Shown: positions 19,813-26,794 of the stretch, piece after piece | Layout: every line of letters begins with the position of its first letter | Position numbering within the stretch: the first letter of the stretch is position 1 | Origin: a virus | Virus record (IMG/VR): IMGVR_UViG_3300048921_000314 | Coordinates: 1 to 26,794 of that record | Strand: one strand, 5' to 3' | DNA: 26,794 nt | Made by a program: the position numbers and the translations under genes | The notes under the pieces: generated by a model | What the model saw: the letters and a program-made list of their open reading frames with translations, nothing else | What the model was told of the DNA's origin: nothing | Databases searched by the model: none

Positions 19813-19911
19813 GAGCGAGGACCATATACTTTCCCGCCTTAAAAGAAGTTTCGTCTCTCATGTTTGGTAGTATACGGAACCTACGCCACCTAGCCCGCTA
19901 AGGAGATGCAT

Positions 19912-21330
19912 ATGGAAATGTTCGGGGATGAGAATATAAATCTTGATAAGGATTATGAGTTTAGGGTGTCTGTTAAAGGCTCCGTTGGCAGTTTCTCGGC
20001 TGTTTTGAAGCTATTTCAAAATGAGATTAGTATAAGGATTAGTGGCGATCAAGTAGGACTGCGCATGTGGGGTGGCACTAAGTGGGAACTAGAATCTTTA
20101 GAGTGTGAAGGTATCGGTTGGTATTGCGTTTTGTTTGATCTGCACTGTATTAAAAGTGGAAGCTTTGCCATCGGTGACATGCTGGGCACTGCTATGCATT
20201 TTGAGGTCGAATACACTGCAAAGTATGCAGTAATAAGCCGGCAGAAAGTTGTAAATATGGATTTTCGTAGTATCCACCTGTATTCACCAAGTCTTGCTAA
20301 ATGGGTGGGTTACACAGAGAAGCAACAGGAGATAATTGAAGACCAAGTGAGCGGGTCGAGAGTCGGGCTCGTTTCGAATTTTGACTATTTTGATACAACT
20401 GAATTTTGTATGGTTGATGAGGACGGAGGTCAGATAGCTCTAAATTATAATATCAAAGCTAGCGCGTCTCCCTTCGAATTCGAAGTTGGAATTCGTTTTC
20501 CACTGTCTTTCAGTGTATTTAAAAATGGCCAAATACAACCTAAGGATAGCCTGGCACTGTATCAAAAATGCTACTCGCTGTTAAGCCTTCTTCATGGGCA
20601 AGAACTGGTTATGGATCGAATTGAGCTGTGGGAAGGCGATGTGAGAAATGGTGAGGCATTTATTTATTATCCAAAGCCAGAGCCATCTTCGAATGATTAT
20701 ATGTCATACAGTTGGTACCCCCTAGGGCATCAATTACGTTTCAATGACTTAGGCTTATCAGCCTTTCCGCTCGAATCAATAAGTAAATATTTCTCAGAAA
20801 GCTATGAGTTATCAGAAAAGTGGTCAAAATATTTGAAGTACAGGAGGATGAGTAATGTTGAAGAAAGATTTCTAGGGTACTTTAGGTTGCTTGAGTCATT
20901 GACTAAGACATCAAAGTCATTTTTGGACCCTGAGCTTTTGAGTCAGCAAGTTAAACGGGTCGAGAAGTTAATGGTCAAGATTTTCGGTGGTGGAAAGGAA
21001 GTCAAAAACTTTCTTCGCGGTATAGCTCGGTACAATAACTCTAAATATAACACTGAAAAATGCATGATTGATTTTTATAAAAAAATCCCAACAAAGGTTG
21101 TTGACGCTTGGTGTCTAAAGCAGGACGCTATTAAAGCGATCTGTAAGTTGCGAAACGATATCAGTCATGCGAATGATTATTTTGAAACTAATGAAGATTT
21201 TTTAGCTAAAATTGCTTTTGTTGAGTCTTTGCTGGTAGTGTCTTTACTTGAGACTGTAGGCGTGCCTATCTCAACATCTTCCAGTTTGATATACAGATTG
21301 CCAGGTGCACATAACTTAGTTGGTCAGTAG
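19912..21330 (+). CDS. HEPN-domain protein resembling ApeA abortive-infection proteins
   Basis: Candidate anti-phage protein. The ATG at 19912 is 6 nt after AAGGAG; an ATG at 19906 abuts that ribosome site and is less likely. It gives 472 residues. The N-terminal half is beta-rich, with IHLYSPSLAKWVGYTE near residues 122-137, reminiscent of ApeA N-terminal domains. The C-terminal half is helical, has VEERFLGYFRLLESL, and ends with the HEPN RNase motif RNDISH (Arg414-x4-His419) in KAICKLRNDISHAN. HEPN proteins with this motif often cut RNA when phage infection is sensed. It is far AT-richer than the tail genes upstream, a sign of recent transfer. Family membership by eye is good for HEPN, moderate for ApeA. 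Confidence 0.72.
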   Translation: MEMFGDENINLDKDYEFRVSVKGSVGSFSAVLKLFQNEISIRISGDQVGLRMWGGTKWELESLECEGIGWYCVLFDLHCIKSGSFAIGDMLGTAMHFEVEYTAKYAVISRQKVVNMDFRSIHLYSPSLAKWVGYTEKQQEIIEDQVSGSRVGLVSNFDYFDTTEFCMVDEDGGQIALNYNIKASASPFEFEVGIRFPLSFSVFKNGQIQPKDSLALYQKCYSLLSLLHGQELVMDRIELWEGDVRNGEAFIYYPKPEPSSNDYMSYSWYPLGHQLRFNDLGLSAFPLESISKYFSESYELSEKWSKYLKYRRMSNVEERFLGYFRLLESLTKTSKSFLDPELLSQQVKRVEKLMVKIFGGGKEVKNFLRGIARYNNSKYNTEKCMIDFYKKIPTKVVDAWCLKQDAIKAICKLRNDISHANDYFETNEDFLAKIAFVESLLVVSLLETVGVPISTSSSLIYRLPGAHNLVGQ

Positions 21331-21393: not shown

Positions 21394-21690
21394 TTACTCT
21401 AAACGACACCACCAAGACTGCGCATAAGCGCACCCATCAACATATTCAATGCCGCTCAGCACGAAACCGTTTGGGGCCATTCCGGACAAGTTCGCGTCGA
21501 GCAGTTGAGGCAGTGGGTCAGGCTCCAATGGCATCCCCTTCGATACCCTCGCTACATTTGAGCTCCGGCCAAGCTCGTTGCTTGTCGCGGGTGCTACAAG
21601 TACGTCACCCCTAATTGCCGGATAACACCTTCTTTCTTGTGGGGCCAAGGCCACACCCTTGCAGCGCATCGGGGTCACTAGCATGTGCAT
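21394..21690 (-). CDS. Small hypothetical protein, second gene of LexA-boxed operon
   Basis: The 98-residue form starts at the ATG at 21690, with GAGGGTGA just upstream; a GTG three codons earlier at 21699 is possible. The sequence MHMLVTPMRCKGVALAPQER is followed by an RGDVLVAPATSNELGRSSNV stretch that may be a small beta-barrel-like domain. The C-terminus ends YAQSWWCRLE. It begins only a few bases after the upstream gene's stop, so the two are an operon. Similar proteins seem familiar from Pseudomonas genomes, but I cannot name a function. Confidence 0.6.
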   Translation of the reverse strand: MHMLVTPMRCKGVALAPQERRCYPAIRGDVLVAPATSNELGRSSNVARVSKGMPLEPDPLPQLLDANLSGMAPNGFVLSGIEYVDGCAYAQSWWCRLE

Positions 21691-21702
21691 GATAGTCACC
21701 CT

Positions 21703-21945
21703 CTAGTAGTCGGTTGGTTCATCTAAGAGCGCCTCTACGGCGTACGCCAGCGCTCCATCTGCTTGCTCAAGTAGATCAGCGAGATCATCACGGCCAATCA
21801 GCTGTGCTCTATGCAGCGCGTATGCCCCGTCTATGAGCTTTTTATGGTGTGCTCCTGGGTGACGCAGCAAGGCCGCTTCATCTCGCAGAAGCTCTAACCA
21901 GGAAGAGGTCACCCTGTTCTCGGTGAAGTGACTTGCATTCGTCAT
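21703..21945 (-). CDS. Small hypothetical protein, first gene of LexA-boxed operon
   Basis: An 80-residue acidic, mostly helical protein starting MTNASHFTENRVTSSWLELL. It contains LRDEAALLRHPGAHHKKLIDGAYALHRAQLIGRDDLADLLEQADGAL in sequence order, a run with alternating helices and a possible DNA- or protein-binding surface. An AGAGG lies about 7 nt before the ATG. A strong LexA box sits about 31 bp upstream, so expression should rise under DNA damage. With prophage induction also tied to SOS, the pair could affect induction or survival; no function is claimed. Confidence 0.65.
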   Translation of the reverse strand: MTNASHFTENRVTSSWLELLRDEAALLRHPGAHHKKLIDGAYALHRAQLIGRDDLADLLEQADGALAYAVEALLDEPTDY

Positions 21946-21973
21946 TGCATCGCCTCTGCTCGCTTGTTACGGG

Positions 21974-21993
21974 CGCTGTATATGCAGACAGTA
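21974..21993 (-). promoter_or_regulatory. LexA (SOS) box upstream of the two-gene operon
   Basis: On the minus strand the site reads TACTGTCTGCATATACAGCG. It has both CTGT and ACAG half-sites with exactly 8 nt between them, matching the gamma-proteobacterial LexA consensus, with an AT-rich side. A TATACT just upstream could be the -10 element. The box lies about 31 bp before the first gene of the operon, so LexA would block that promoter. Confidence 0.78.
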
Positions 21994-22523
21994 TATTGCG
22001 CCGCCTGGCTCGCTAAGCGGTGATCCGACGAAGTGCAGCCCCGGCGGCAAACCAAATTTGTGGCAGCAAGAAAAAACTGTACGGAAAAGCACTTATCCCC
22101 CTCCCGCCGACGGGGTATGCGCCCTTTTTTTGTGCAAATCCAAGTGTAGTGAAAACGTACCCAATGCCCAGGCTGGCAGGACGGCGCTATAGATGATCGG
22201 CAATTTCACAGATTGTAAGATTTGGAAGAAATGTGCAGCGCGGCTGCACAGCAGTTCATCAAGCGGTTACAAACGGCACACCTCTGAATACCTTGGTTTC
22301 ATTGGGTCCGAGCTATTGAAAGGATTCGAATACGGGGTTTTTCGAAAACCTGAGCTATCCTTTTAGACTGAAATTGGCTGTGCTACTGGTAGCAGCTAAA
22401 TTGAGTTCAAGCCCCGTGCAAGCTGGGTTGGAAGGAATTCGGGCATTTCACAACATTGCCGACAGGGGCGTCGATGTTACTGACAGTCCACCTCAAAAAT
22501 TGTTTGCAAGGGAATGCTATTTT
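21994..22523. other. Gene-free stretch with small inverted repeats
   Basis: About 530 nt without a credible reading frame on either strand. It contains a perfect 8+8 palindrome (22232-22250), a smaller GGTTTT/AAAACC hairpin (22336-22350), and a run of seven T's (22125-22131) after GC-rich sequence that might be a weak terminator. It separates the LexA-boxed operon from the DUF5677-like gene. I see no RNA gene that I can name. Confidence 0.6.
22232..22250. repeat. Perfect inverted repeat TGTGCAGC-GCG-GCTGCACA
   Basis: Eight-base arms are exact inverted copies around a 3-nt centre. No T-run follows, so a terminator is unlikely; a regulator binding site or an RNA hairpin is possible. It lies about 275 bp downstream of the DUF5677-like gene's stop in that gene's direction. 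Confidence 0.6.
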
Positions 22524-23315
22524 TCAATAATTCTTCGGTAAAGCATCGAAATCGGTAAGGATCTTATTAAAATCATCATTGTATTGTTCGAATTTAAGTA
22601 CCTCTGCTACACCTATAAGGATCGGGTTCATAGCGTAGAGAGCGTAGAAGAGCGTCTTCGCGATTTCTGATGGTGGGCCAGCACCAATCTTGTACTCCCA
22701 GTAAGCCCTTTCTTCGTAGGCGTTGACATGATGTTCGAGAGAGGAAGCTGAAACGTGACTTGATTCATCCGAAAGACATTGGTAGGCGTAATACTGAAAT
22801 TCCAACGGGCTCATTGACGCTAATGTTTTTGGACTTATCAGGTCGAGTGATTTACTTAGACTTTCGATTGCTTCTTGTAGAGCCTTTCGCTCGCCCGGGG
22901 TCTTGGCGTGACCTTGATTTTGAAGTGTTTGGAATCGATTCCTACGACTTTTGAGATGGTCGTCTCTAAGCATTTGTATGTATTTTGACTGAGCAGAGGT
23001 GAGTGCGCCCACGCTGAAACTTACCTCAAGAAGAGATCGTGCCATGATTCGACCTTCGACGTGCATTCCTCTCTGTGCCATCAGGAGGGCGCCTTGGTAA
23101 ATCCCAGCAGCTCGAAGGAGTAAGCGAACAGCGATAGCCTCCGCAGACCATGAAGTGGCATGCACCTTGTCTAAGGCTTCTTGCATAATCCTCATAGTTA
23201 GCAGATTTGTAGATTTAGCCAAAGAAAACCAATCAGCATTAGCTTCTACAATCGCCTCACAAGCAGAATCAAGCTCACTGCCCAAAAAACCAGCGGGTGG
23301 TACTTTCCAGTTCAT
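22524..23315 (-). CDS. DUF5677-like protein
   Basis: A 263-residue helical protein, starting MNWKVPPAGFLGSELDSACE. It shows the pattern known for DUF5677: ARSLLEVSFSVGAL near residues 92-105 (R-x3-E), and YQCLSDESSHVSASSLEHHV later (a 'yr.LS...H' segment). These features suggest a HEPN-like all-helical fold, though no RX4-6H motif is evident. It has no signal peptide or membrane segment. It is transcribed leftward, in the same direction as the zinc-ribbon gene about 166 nt upstream, and a C10A7 homopolymer lies between them. Function is unknown; accessory island location suggests a defence or stress role. Confidence 0.68.
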   Translation of the reverse strand: MNWKVPPAGFLGSELDSACEAIVEANADWFSLAKSTNLLTMRIMQEALDKVHATSWSAEAIAVRLLLRAAGIYQGALLMAQRGMHVEGRIMARSLLEVSFSVGALTSAQSKYIQMLRDDHLKSRRNRFQTLQNQGHAKTPGERKALQEAIESLSKSLDLISPKTLASMSPLEFQYYAYQCLSDESSHVSASSLEHHVNAYEERAYWEYKIGAGPPSEIAKTLFYALYAMNPILIGVAEVLKFEQYNDDFNKILTDFDALPKNY

Positions 23316-23415: not shown

Positions 23416-23432
23416 CCCCCCCCCCAAAAAAA
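23416..23432. repeat. Homopolymer tract C10-A7 upstream of the DUF5677-like gene
   Basis: Ten C followed by seven A on the plus strand (T7G10 on the coding strand of the flanking genes), in the 166-nt gap between two minus-strand genes. It lies about 100 bp before the start of the DUF5677-like gene. Such tracts change length easily, so variable promoter spacing is possible but not shown. Length in the read could also be imprecise. Confidence 0.8.
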
Positions 23433-23481: not shown

Positions 23482-24360
23482 TCAAGTTTGCTTATCTTTT
23501 GGGGCGAGTAATCTAGAAATAGCGTGTGTTAGTTCTGCTTCATCCTTGAGTGCTTGTGACAAACGTTCCGACAGCTCCCCTAAAACAACCCGTACGCTAG
23601 CGGCATAACCGAGACAGTCTTCATCTGACATGTTATGGATTCCATCACTCAATGCGTTGTGTAGGAGCTTTAAAGGATTGTGGCCATTCACTAATAAGCT
23701 TTCAGGCATGGCGGGTTTTGCAATCTCTAATGCTTTTGTAAATTGAGTTTCTGCAATCGCCGTATCTAATATTGCTATGTTTTCTTTAGAGGCGCCGAGA
23801 CGTTCAAGAACCTTTATGATTTCTTTGAGGATTCTATTTTTTTGACTTTCAACTACTCGTCGATAATATACAAAAGCGCCAACTCCTAATCCTTGGTTTT
23901 CACACCTTCTTCCTTTCAAAAAGGTATCTCTGTCTGGTCCTATTAGTTTTAGTAGTCGTGCGGGTGTAGGCGGGCCAAATATTGGTGTCTCGCCAAATTT
24001 GTACAAGCTACCGAACTCGTCATCTTCGCTCCTGGTAGCCGTGACTGAATAAGTCTTTACAGATTTTTGGCAGTTCGCGCATCTATATTTTAAAAAAACG
24101 TCTTTGGATTCGTTAAAAGATAAATGTAAGTTAAAACCTGTAACGCAACGGAAAAAACGGACGCCATTACACGTCTCGTTTGAACAGTGAAGCTGGATCT
24201 CCGGAGTCTTCAGAAATTCCCCGCTTGGCGAATTCCCAACGCGTTTGGACATCATGAGGTCTGAAATGAGGATCAGTTGGTTCGGTGGGGACGATTCGAG
24301 GAATTCTGCAAATGTTTGCTTGTCTGGTTCAGCCACTGATTCTGGAGCATTGACGGTCAT
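23482..24360 (-). CDS. Zinc-ribbon protein with HEPN-like C-terminal region
   Basis: A 292-residue protein starting MTVNAPESVAEPDKQTFAEF. A zinc-ribbon-like module has Cys59-x4-Cys64 and Cys94-x2-Cys97, with Cys72 between. The C-terminal 140 residues are helical and contain LLHNALSDGIHNMSDEDCLGY, an 'LSxGIH' signature seen in HEPN-like or DUF4145-like proteins, without the Arg of the RX4-6H RNase motif. AT-rich base use again differs from the phage tail genes. It may form a unit with the DUF5677-like gene downstream. Function is unknown; nucleic acid binding through the ribbon is inference. Confidence 0.65.
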   Translation of the reverse strand: MTVNAPESVAEPDKQTFAEFLESSPPNQLILISDLMMSKRVGNSPSGEFLKTPEIQLHCSNETCNGVRFFRCVTGFNLHLSFNESKDVFLKYRCANCQKSVKTYSVTATRSEDDEFGSLYKFGETPIFGPPTPARLLKLIGPDRDTFLKGRRCENQGLGVGAFVYYRRVVESQKNRILKEIIKVLERLGASKENIAILDTAIAETQFTKALEIAKPAMPESLLVNGHNPLKLLHNALSDGIHNMSDEDCLGYAASVRVVLGELSERLSQALKDEAELTHAISRLLAPKDKQT

Positions 24361-24767: not shown

Positions 24768-25081
24768 CTACGCGAACAATTCCGCGTGACTCCCCAAGTC
24801 CACAAAGGTGATCAGGTCAGCCCGCGATTGTTCATAAATCATCAGAAAATCACCGCCGATATGGCACTCTCTGAAACCGTCCCAATTCCCGGTAAGCGCA
24901 TGGTCTCGATACTCGGCGGGTAGTTGTTCGCCTAAAAAAGCATCACCATCACCACCCGGACCTCATTCATATCCCGACGCCCGGCACGCTTGTAGCGTTC
25001 CCAGGACTTTTTAAACTCAGGCGTCTGCGCGCATTGCTTTGGCAGGTCAGCGCGCTTTTGTTTCTTCTCCTGTTTCGCCAT
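24768..25081 (-). pseudogene. YafQ/RelE-family mRNA-interferase toxin, frameshifted
   Basis: From the ATG at 25081 the frame gives 49 residues (MAKQEKKQKRADLPKQCAQT start, then PEFKKSWERYKRAG) and stops at a TAG (24932-24934) after CTT TTT. Adding one T to the T6 tract (A6 on plus, 24934-24939), or a -1 slip there, restores a 104-residue toxin. The restored part has the YafQ-type residues His61, His74, Asp78, His99 and Phe103 (DHALTG, ECHIGGD, GSHAELF). YafQ-type toxins cut mRNA on the ribosome. The start overlaps the antitoxin gene by 35 nt. It could be a true pseudogene, a read error, or a slippage-controlled gene. Confidence 0.8.
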
Positions 25082-25337
25082 CAGTGTCCCTTAGCATGTC
25101 GTCGATCGAGTCAAACTGGCGACGTATCGCATGCGCTTGTGCCATGGCACGAGCGGTCTTCTGCGAAGGAACCCGCACCTCAAATGGTATTCCCTGTGTT
25201 GTCACGACCTGGCGGAGGAAAAGACGCATGGCGTCACTGAGGCTAAGCCCACAGGCATTGAGCACAGCAGTGGCACGCTCCTTCAAATCCTCATCGATGC
25301 GGCATCGCACGTCAGTAGTCTTCAGTAATGCAGGCAT
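25047..25337 (-). CDS. DinJ/RelB-family antitoxin
   Basis: A 96-residue antitoxin starting MPALLKTTDVRCRIDEDLKE from the ATG at 25337, which has GGGAG about 8 nt upstream; the frame extends 6 codons further to a TTG, not preferred. The N-terminal 50 residues (CRIDEDLKERATAVLNACGLSLSDAMRLFLRQVV) form a ribbon-helix-helix DNA-binding domain of DinJ/RelB type. The C-terminus is charged and should wrap the toxin. It comes first in a two-gene operon with the YafQ-like toxin, overlapping by 35 nt. It probably represses its own promoter through the palindrome just upstream. Confidence 0.88.
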   Translation of the reverse strand: MPALLKTTDVRCRIDEDLKERATAVLNACGLSLSDAMRLFLRQVVTTQGIPFEVRVPSQKTARAMAQAHAIRRQFDSIDDMLRDTDGETGEETKAR

Positions 25338-25358
25338 ATCATGACTCCCTCTCAAAAT

Positions 25359-25530: not shown

Positions 25531-25565
25531 CCAGCTTTATGCAGGGAAATACGACGACTGCTGCG
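25531..25565. repeat. 35-bp imperfect direct repeat, copy B
   Basis: Second copy of the repeat at 24714-24748, 817 bp away in the same orientation, 140 bp upstream of kup's leader end. It reads CCAGCTTTATGC ... GACTGCTGCG with three differences. Together the copies bracket the toxin-antitoxin pair, and copy B is presumably the one nearer unaltered chromosome. Confidence 0.75.
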
Positions 25566-25631
25566 CTATGCTTCGCGCCGTTGCGCACGGGGAAAACCCT
25601 TGGGTCAATAAAACGTCTGTTACGAGAAGTA

Positions 25632-25669
25632 AAACAGCGCATGCTAGGGTCAGCTTAGACGCGCTGTTT
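25632..25669 (+). promoter_or_regulatory. Inverted repeat in the kup leader, with possible promoter
   Basis: AAACAGCGC and GCGCTGTTT are perfect 9-bp inverted copies separated by 20 nt. The spacer holds TGCTAGGGT, which could be an extended -10 element (TG-N-TAGGGT), so the repeat may overlap the kup promoter or form a leader hairpin. No good -35 is seen. The right arm ends 35 nt before the ATG. Confidence 0.4.
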
Positions 25670-25704
25670 ATAAGAGACCTCAGGTCAAAGGGCAGGAGTG
25701 GTTG

Positions 25705-26794
25705 ATGGGTCAGGCAAGTAGTCAGGCAGCAGGTGCCGAGCATTCCAACGCAAAGCCGATCGGCATGCTGGTGGCAGCGGTCGGGGTGGTTTACGGCGAT
25801 ATCGGTACCAGCCCGCTCTATACCCTCAAAGAGGTGTTCAACGGTGGTTATGGGGTGCAGGTCAACCATGACGGTGTGCTGGGGATCCTGGCGCTGATCT
25901 TCTGGTCGTTGATCTGGGTGGTGTCGATCAAGTACATGCTGTTCGTGCTGCGCGCCGATAACCAGGGCGAAGGCGGCATCATGGCCCTGACCGCGTTGGC
26001 GCGAAGGGCGGCGGGGGAGCGCAAGAAGTTGCGCAGTTTCCTCGTGGTGTGCGGCCTGTGCGGTGCGGCGCTGTTCTATGGCGACAGCATGATTACCCCG
26101 GCGATTTCGGTGCTGTCGGCCATTGAAGGCCTGGAACTTGCGTTCGACGGCCTGGAAAAATGGGTGGTGCCGATCGCCCTGGTGGTGCTGGTGGCGCTGT
26201 TCCTGATCCAGAAGCACGGTACCGACCGCATCGGCAAGTTGTTCGGGCCGGTGATGGTGACCTGGTTCCTGGTATTGGGTGCTCTCGGTGTGTATGGCAT
26301 TACCCTGCACCCTGAAGTGCTCAATGCCTTGAACCCGATGTGGGGCGTGCGTTTCTTCGAGGCCCACCCTGGCATTGGCGTGGCAATCCTCGGTGCGGTA
26401 GTGCTGGCGTTGACCGGTGCCGAGGCGCTGTATGCCGACATGGGCCACTTCGGCCGCAAGCCCATCGCCCGCGCCTGGTTCATCCTGGTGTTGCCGGCGC
26501 TGGTGCTCAACTATTTCGGCCAGGGCGCCATGCTGCTGGGCGACCCGGAAGCCGCACGCAACCCGTTCTACCTGTTGGCGCCGAGTTGGGCGCTGATCCC
26601 GCTGGTGGTGTTGTCCACCCTGGCCACGGTGATTGCGTCCCAGGCGGTGATCTCCGGTGCGTTCTCGTTGACGCGCCAGGCGATCCAGTTGGGTTATATC
26701 CCGCGTATGCATATCCAGCACACCTCAAGCGCCGAACAGGGCCAGATCTATATCGGTGCCGTGAACTGGTCGCTGATGGTCGGCGTGATCCTGC
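25705..26794 (+). CDS. kup: Low-affinity potassium transporter Kup (3' end outside window)
   Basis: Kup (TrkD) family potassium uptake permease of the inner membrane, a proton-coupled K+ importer. The ATG at 25705 has AGGAG 6 nt upstream and starts [20 protein letters not shown]. The family signature [19 protein letters not shown] follows in the first membrane segment, then the [20 protein letters not shown] loop, [20 protein letters not shown], and [20 protein letters not shown]. The frame stays open for 363 codons to the window edge; Kup is usually about 620-640 residues. Its codon use is host-like, so it marks the chromosome to the right of the prophage and cargo. Confidence 0.95.

Follow-up and report, generated by a model that had tools for sequence, protein, structure and literature searches.

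This locus raises the question of what two small genes are doing behind an SOS box in a Pseudomonas virus. The window, by which we mean the whole analyzed stretch of 26,794 nucleotides, is IMG/VR virus record IMGVR_UViG_3300048921_000314 (positions 1 to 26,794). SOS-controlled prophage operons are of a known kind; the two protein families encoded here carry no function in the libraries searched, and no published account of either family was found in the open-access literature. An earlier note on this DNA had proposed a LexA-controlled operon in a prophage setting, for which antirepressors, recombination modulators or toxins were named as possible products. The setting was borne out by late-gene content and by DNA relatives. 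The genes of this virus record run from a terminase, on the minus strand, through scaffold, major capsid, sheath, tape measure and baseplate, a P2/HP1-like gene set, and across 7.5 kb of late genes the named phages closest in DNA were Pseudomonas phage UFJF_PfPro (79% identity) and P. aeruginosa phages such as phi3 (70%). UFJF_PfPro and phi3 are Peduoviridae, and phi3 is a Phitrevirus. The window represents part of a Pseudomonas prophage of the P2 type (Phitrevirus-like). No account of UFJF_PfPro induction was found in the literature.

The two genes are small, tightly linked and on the minus strand, as previously described, with the start of the second now moved. Gene 1 (P0001; 21703..21945, from the ORF list and a profile search) encodes 80 residues from an ATG and is preceded by a ribosome-binding-like AGAGG at 21953..21957 on the same strand, read by eye. 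Gene 2 (P0002; 21394..21690, minus strand, from the ORF list, a profile search and relatives) encodes 98 residues from an ATG at 21690, whereas the listed ORF (21394-21699) gives 101 residues from a GTG. The ATG is the more likely start because an AGAGGG (21699..21704, minus strand, also read by eye and overlapping the gene 1 stop) lies 8 nt ahead of it, because relatives start at the same Met, and because the resulting 12-bp gap between the gene 1 stop and the gene 2 ATG is the commonest spacing in relatives (14/75). The GTG at 21699 is less likely since it sits on that ribosome-binding-like AGAGGG.

Upstream of gene 1 lies a perfect LexA box, CTGT-N8-ACAG, at 21976..21991 (entered without a strand, from the sequence and from conservation in relatives), which ends 30 bp before the gene 1 ATG on the minus strand and reads TACTGTCTGCATATACAG on that strand at 21993-21976. 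It is the sole perfect match in the window. Taken alone, the box is no more than chance would give: a window of this size should contain 0.36 perfect matches, and at least one occurred in 30 of 100 shuffles. When the upstream TA was included, none of 100 shuffles matched, the TA extension having been picked after the site was seen. A consensus promoter scan did not find a sigma-70 site. An ATATA ahead of the CTGT was kept in near relatives, which suggests a candidate −10 element, TATACT (21990..21995, minus strand), that would overlap the operator.

Conservation of the box was examined in two sets of relatives. The near set comprised 14 loci from genomes and 63 from virus contigs, giving 77 including the window after L009, which has no gene-2 ORF, was dropped; the distant set of 62 loci was reduced to 60 (L283 and L285 dropped) and drew on 40 stretches picked among the better-scoring distant places of a genus-level search. 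A box was counted if it lay within 150 bp upstream of the domain start of the first gene. Gene 1 was followed by gene 2 in 75 of 77 near loci, and a perfect box preceded the pair in 63 of the 71 loci counted (six of the 77 were left out for too little upstream DNA); the other 8 all had a one-mismatch box at the same place. Thus, homologous loci with a conserved LexA box, the check that had been proposed for this operon, do exist. The background in the near loci was 13 other perfect boxes in 593 kb, or 0.003 per 150 bp. Among the 60 distant gene-2 relatives, 41 had a perfect box at most 150 bp upstream, compared with about 0.003 per 150 bp in the rest of the DNA of these loci, and about nine more had a one-mismatch box 24 to 31 bp upstream, mostly ending CCAG. 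Gene order was looser in this set, with gene 1 following gene 2 in 21 loci, preceding it in 3, on the opposite strand in 1 and undetected in 35.

When the loci were aligned on the box, the core carried 1.88 bits per position in near relatives and 1.84 in distant ones, compared to 0.16 to 0.20 in the flanks (0.19 in the near left flank). Near loci are not all independent, since in some cases a single prophage is probably represented by both a genome and a virus record; 57 of 64 boxed near sequences were distinct, as were 41 distant ones. At the level of sequence comparison, it is conservation, not box rarity, that decides that the LexA box is real. LexA control of the gene pair is well supported by this footprint across relatives, strongly so for a conserved two-gene operon, and we infer LexA binding and induction at the box.

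Next, the two proteins were characterized. P0002 matched phrog_5560 of PHROGs v4 (E 4.1e-36, residues 11-100 onto 1-89 of 90), and P0001 matched phrog_6137 (E 1.1e-18, residues 12-77 onto 5-70 of 76). Both families are annotated in PHROGs v4 as of unknown function, and neither entry gives regulation or context. The earlier statement that no domain is recognized therefore stood for Pfam and NCBIfam, in which neither protein matched a family at E up to 1, and gave way for PHROGs, in which both belong to families. Neither protein matched a toxin, antitoxin or defense family. The DinI domain was absent from both by Pfam and NCBIfam profiles, as were Peptidase_S24 and IMS domains (positive controls scored) and DUF1654 (for which the Pseudomonas putida protein PP_3901 scores 111 bits). 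Both genes are under purifying selection, with a median dN/dS of 0.154 for gene 1 (53 pairs) and 0.063 for gene 2 (55 pairs); only pairs with dS of 0.05 to 2 were used, out of up to 300 drawn.

Structure prediction gave gene 1 as a helical bundle (mean pLDDT 86.7; helices at 3-20, 23-28, 30-46 and 52-75). Its net charge is −7, with −8 across residues 52-79, which takes in an acidic C-terminal helix (52-75), and its conserved acidic positions are D57, E60, D63 and E71. The gene 1 fold search was rejected as a clue to function: it returned generic helical bundles only (best Z 8.3), and a Z under about 13 means little for bundles. Gene 2 was modeled as an all-beta domain (mean pLDDT 86.8 in the best of five models, three of the five falling below 55) and has a conserved C-terminal motif, GFVLSGIEYVDGCAYAQSWWCR. 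Matches of this model to PH/Ran-binding folds were weak (best Z 6.0, rmsd 2.9 over 76 residues; best Foldseek E 0.059), there was no match in a viral structure library at E 0.001, and the PH/Ran-binding-like fold was set aside as evidence of function. As modeled, neither predicted fold points to a known function.

Within the phage, the pair occupies a variable slot past the last baseplate gene. This slot was surveyed in 80 loci fetched by the baseplate gene, 54 of which had at least 3 kb beyond it. Both genes were present in 29 of the 54, on the strand opposite the late genes and with the gene 2 start 0.7 to 2.8 kb beyond the baseplate gene. Other genes of the window lie around the pair. Adjoining it on the plus strand (19906-21330) is a gene for a 474-residue protein with ApeA N-terminal and Apea-like HEPN domains, likely anti-phage defense cargo, which gave weak HEPN-type matches only against PADLOC-DB. 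The same cargo region includes, on the minus strand, genes for a 263-residue DUF5677 protein (22524-23315) and a 292-residue phrog_25239 protein (23482-24360); a C-tract followed by an A-tract at about 23416-23431, between the DUF5677 gene and its neighbor, is possibly slippage-prone. Farther along the minus strand are a gene for a RelB-family antitoxin (25047-25355) and a 394-residue ORF without a Pfam, NCBIfam or PHROG match (25537-26721).

The reach of the gene-2 family was largely that of one bacterial family. Of 298 genomes sampled within one genus of Pseudomonas, 70 had a relative, which was also present in 23 of 198 drawn from the family and in 1 of 274 drawn class-wide, that one being the genome of the query itself. 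They also occurred in the Pseudomonas/Stutzerimonas phages PG1, vB_PstS-pAN and Medea1, in the Pf-type inovirus PfAC02b and in conjugative plasmids. In PfAC02b (L004), the relative has a perfect LexA box and lies between the phage repressor and a Gabija defense system. A DNA search of plasmids with the window region gave no match, nor did protein searches of phages and plasmids with P0001. The gene-2 family belongs to mobile elements of Pseudomonadaceae.

In the distant loci, gene 2 was often found beside DNA damage genes. The gene for HMCES (SRAP), an abasic-site protein, was no farther than about 2.5 kb from gene 2 in 17 of 60 loci, as a raw count. In 11 of the 60 it was divergent from gene 2 at a start-to-start distance of 93 to 137 bp, with a LexA box in between that was perfect in 10 of the 11 and had one mismatch in the other; two of these divergent copies (L203 and L231) were broken into pieces. 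In four further distant loci HMCES was codirectional and ahead of gene 2 with a 2-bp gap, and the upstream DNA of these four, up to 1.5 kb, contained no perfect LexA box. UmuD was nearby in 5 of 60. A P. cerasi plasmid has gene 2, an S24 peptidase gene (UmuD-like) and a gene-1-like gene in that order with HMCES (SRAP) divergent, and a P. syringae pv. actinidiae plasmid has the same layout by annotation. The conserved arrangement of HMCES, box and gene 2 provides a direct genetic handle.

The phage slot of the pair held a boxed UmuD-UmuC operon and no pair in four loci (L136, L137, L142 and L143), and in L142 SRAP was divergent from the same box as UmuD-UmuC. A survey of 78 new loci fetched with gene 1 yielded 6 in which gene 1 occurred without gene 2. 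In one (L392), UmuD and then UmuC came after gene 1, and the only box upstream had one mismatch. The remaining five (L363, L370, L375, L378 and L379) had, after gene 1, an ORF of 91 to 94 residues unrelated to gene 2, a third version of the SOS operon; the one such ORF tested had no significant Pfam match and no PHROG match, and in L378 an 83-residue phrog_36962 protein also follows. Among the near relatives of the window, HMCES was near the pair in 0 of 77 loci and UmuD in 1 of 77, so the link to repair rests mainly on distant homologues and on swapping within the slot.

Linkage to HMCES and UmuD/UmuC favors a modulator of recombination, repair or SOS. We put forward the pair as an SOS-induced accessory module that acts in DNA damage tolerance or SOS modulation, a reading for which we regard the chances as evenly divided and in which the biochemical role would follow from the company that the genes keep. 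The operon would be a LexA-repressed accessory unit in the cargo slot past the last baseplate gene, with LexA covering its promoter; DNA damage would lead to RecA-stimulated LexA cleavage and then to a short two-gene mRNA. The two small proteins, one acidic and helical and the other its beta-domain partner, would act in the damage tolerance or SOS machinery, where they would probably bind or modulate SOS proteins or damaged single-stranded DNA together with HMCES (SRAP) and UmuD/UmuC. A more specific version holds that both families are new parts of SOS lesion tolerance, with gene 2 working with HMCES at damaged single-stranded DNA, gene 1 serving as a RecA- or polymerase-facing manager, and the pair standing in for UmuDC in the same LexA-controlled slot. 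This version is tentative, and we think it possible rather than probable.

That pair and site are conserved together in many Pseudomonas viruses and plasmids, often beside DNA damage genes, indicates that they are probably a shared, undescribed part of a damage response. If the damage tolerance role is true, an undescribed means of influencing host survival, mutation or SOS output is common to a broad range of Pseudomonas phages, to an inovirus and to conjugative plasmids. P. aeruginosa lacks umuDC according to the available part of a review (PMC13114513), and mobile elements could therefore bring such functions into Pseudomonas.

An alternative is that the pair is a prophage induction switch, in which gene 2 (or gene 1) would be a LexA-controlled antirepressor of a noncleavable repressor and the other gene a DinI-like companion. 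Several features fit. The S24 peptidase domain was absent from 24 of 29 near-complete pair-positive phages. An HTH_3 match exceeded the cutoff in 31 of 35 records searched, the 29 among them, and most of the repressor candidates were short; no repressor was identified in the window itself. The box of the pair was the only perfect one in the genome of most pair-positive phages. The acidic C-terminal helix of gene 1 and the layout of a box with two small genes, in flipped order elsewhere and outside the immunity region, also agree, the latter matching the Gifsy/PSP3 operons as far as the available text of PMC3121763 describes them.

A cognate antirepressor should nevertheless track its repressor, and the pair tracked neither repressor identity nor repressor type. 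Across 28 of the 29 phages (L071 had no HTH match), the identity of the pair and that of the repressor candidate were weakly correlated (Spearman 0.14), and of the 40 phage-to-phage comparisons in which the gene pairs were most similar (80 to 96% identity), 33 involved repressor candidates that shared less than 50% identity, among them S24 types set against short ones. A further sample was selected without regard to the pair and comprised 32 near-complete phages fetched through the baseplate gene; S24 repressors occurred in 2 of the 15 phages with the pair and in 3 of the 17 without it (Fisher p = 1). The idea that the pair goes with phages that have no cleavable repressor was rejected, as an S24 repressor was missing from 13 of the 15 phages with the pair and from 14 of the 17 without it. 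Of the five S24-positive phages among the 29, one (G324, from L056) owed its match to a UmuD-like ORF; the other four have a cleavable S24 repressor, and all carry DUF1654, with a perfect box of its own upstream in 3 of 4. The presence of gene 2 on conjugative plasmids and in a Pf inovirus also argues against a switch of this kind. These results weaken the antirepressor option of the earlier note, in that near-identical pairs stand beside unrelated repressor candidates and presence of the pair is unrelated to a cleavable repressor. The lowering is not absolute, because antirepressors can act on other repressors, as reported for the Gifsy antirepressors on noncognate repressors in the available part of PMC3121763, and because, in some phages, the HTH protein compared may be something other than the immunity repressor. 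We regard the switch as rather unlikely, if still a serious competitor.

DUF1654 recurred as an SOS module located at the opposite end of the phage from the pair. In G313, G314, G334, G800 and G804 (the records behind L029, L030, L078, L143 and L161), the domain is preceded, at a distance of about 60 bp, by a perfect LexA box, and these phages also encode an S24 repressor.

The accessory module that we propose could instead serve the phage and not repair. Gene 1 would then bind RecA or LexA, its acidic helix acting as a DNA mimic, or gene 2 would tune LexA, and the phage would set the duration of the host SOS response. The net charge of gene 1, concentrated in residues 52-79, its conserved acidic positions and the many element types that carry these genes under the same box agree with this proposal. 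Against it, neither protein matches DinI or another SOS protein family, and the structures matched by the helical model of gene 1 are generic bundles only. We consider such a host SOS modulator unlikely.

The genes are small, linked and SOS-controlled, and their cargo slot also contains an ApeA-like HEPN gene; they might likewise encode a toxin, a division inhibitor or another growth-halting pair unrelated to repair. No positive evidence for the toxin option was found among the families searched; the order of the genes flips and each occurs alone, unlike in a tight toxin-antitoxin pair, and the linkage is to damage tolerance genes. This explanation appears very improbable. Finally, it is hardly conceivable that the box arose by chance and that the ORFs lie outside LexA control, since the frequency of perfect boxes in shuffled windows is outweighed by a box kept at one position in all of those distinct near and distant sequences, with an information-rich core between low-information flanks.

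How does the proposed damage tolerance module compare with known systems? Coliphage 186 is a P2-type phage, as are the carriers of the pair. In the available part of PMC3121763, the Gifsy prophages and coliphage 186 are described as having small noncleavable repressors and LexA-controlled antirepressors next to dinI-like genes, with GfoA/GftA (Gifsy) and Tum (186) as the named precedents. As far as that text extends, the dinI-antirepressor operon and Tum resemble our locus in having a LexA box ahead of small prophage genes outside the immunity region, in an order that varies between phages, and many carriers of the pair are without any S24 (cleavable) domain. In contrast, the pair matches neither DinI nor any other named family in sequence, shows no tracking of the repressor, and is found also on plasmids and in an inovirus, linked to HMCES and UmuD/UmuC. 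An acidic C-terminal helix marks DinI, for which DNA mimicry has been proposed. Gene 1 has a helix of this sort, the DinI domain itself being absent.

Another small gene that lies in a Pseudomonas prophage and directly follows a perfect SOS box is known from P. putida KT2440. This gene, PP_3901 (DUF1654), is controlled by LexA1/LexA2 and is needed for DNA damage induction of other prophage genes, according to the available part of PMC4595014. PP_3901 was rejected as a homologue of P0001 and P0002, as there was no pairwise similarity; it belongs to the DUF1654 family (E 1.7e-32, 111 bits), which is present alongside the pair in 4 of the 29 phages, namely the ones that have S24 repressors. By profile score, P0002 belongs to phrog_5560 and P0001 to phrog_6137.

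The closest parallels in gene neighborhood are with damage genes. SRAP/HMCES (YedK) adjoins SOS genes, prophages included, in the available part of PMC3765255; neither small family is named in that part, and in our distant relatives SRAP and gene 2 have a promoter region in common. The UmuD-UmuC (Pol V) operons of mobile elements differ in that P0001 and P0002 are neither UmuD nor UmuC by sequence, yet these operons follow a perfect LexA box in the same phage slot, and UmuD or UmuDC is found inside operons with gene 1 or gene 2.
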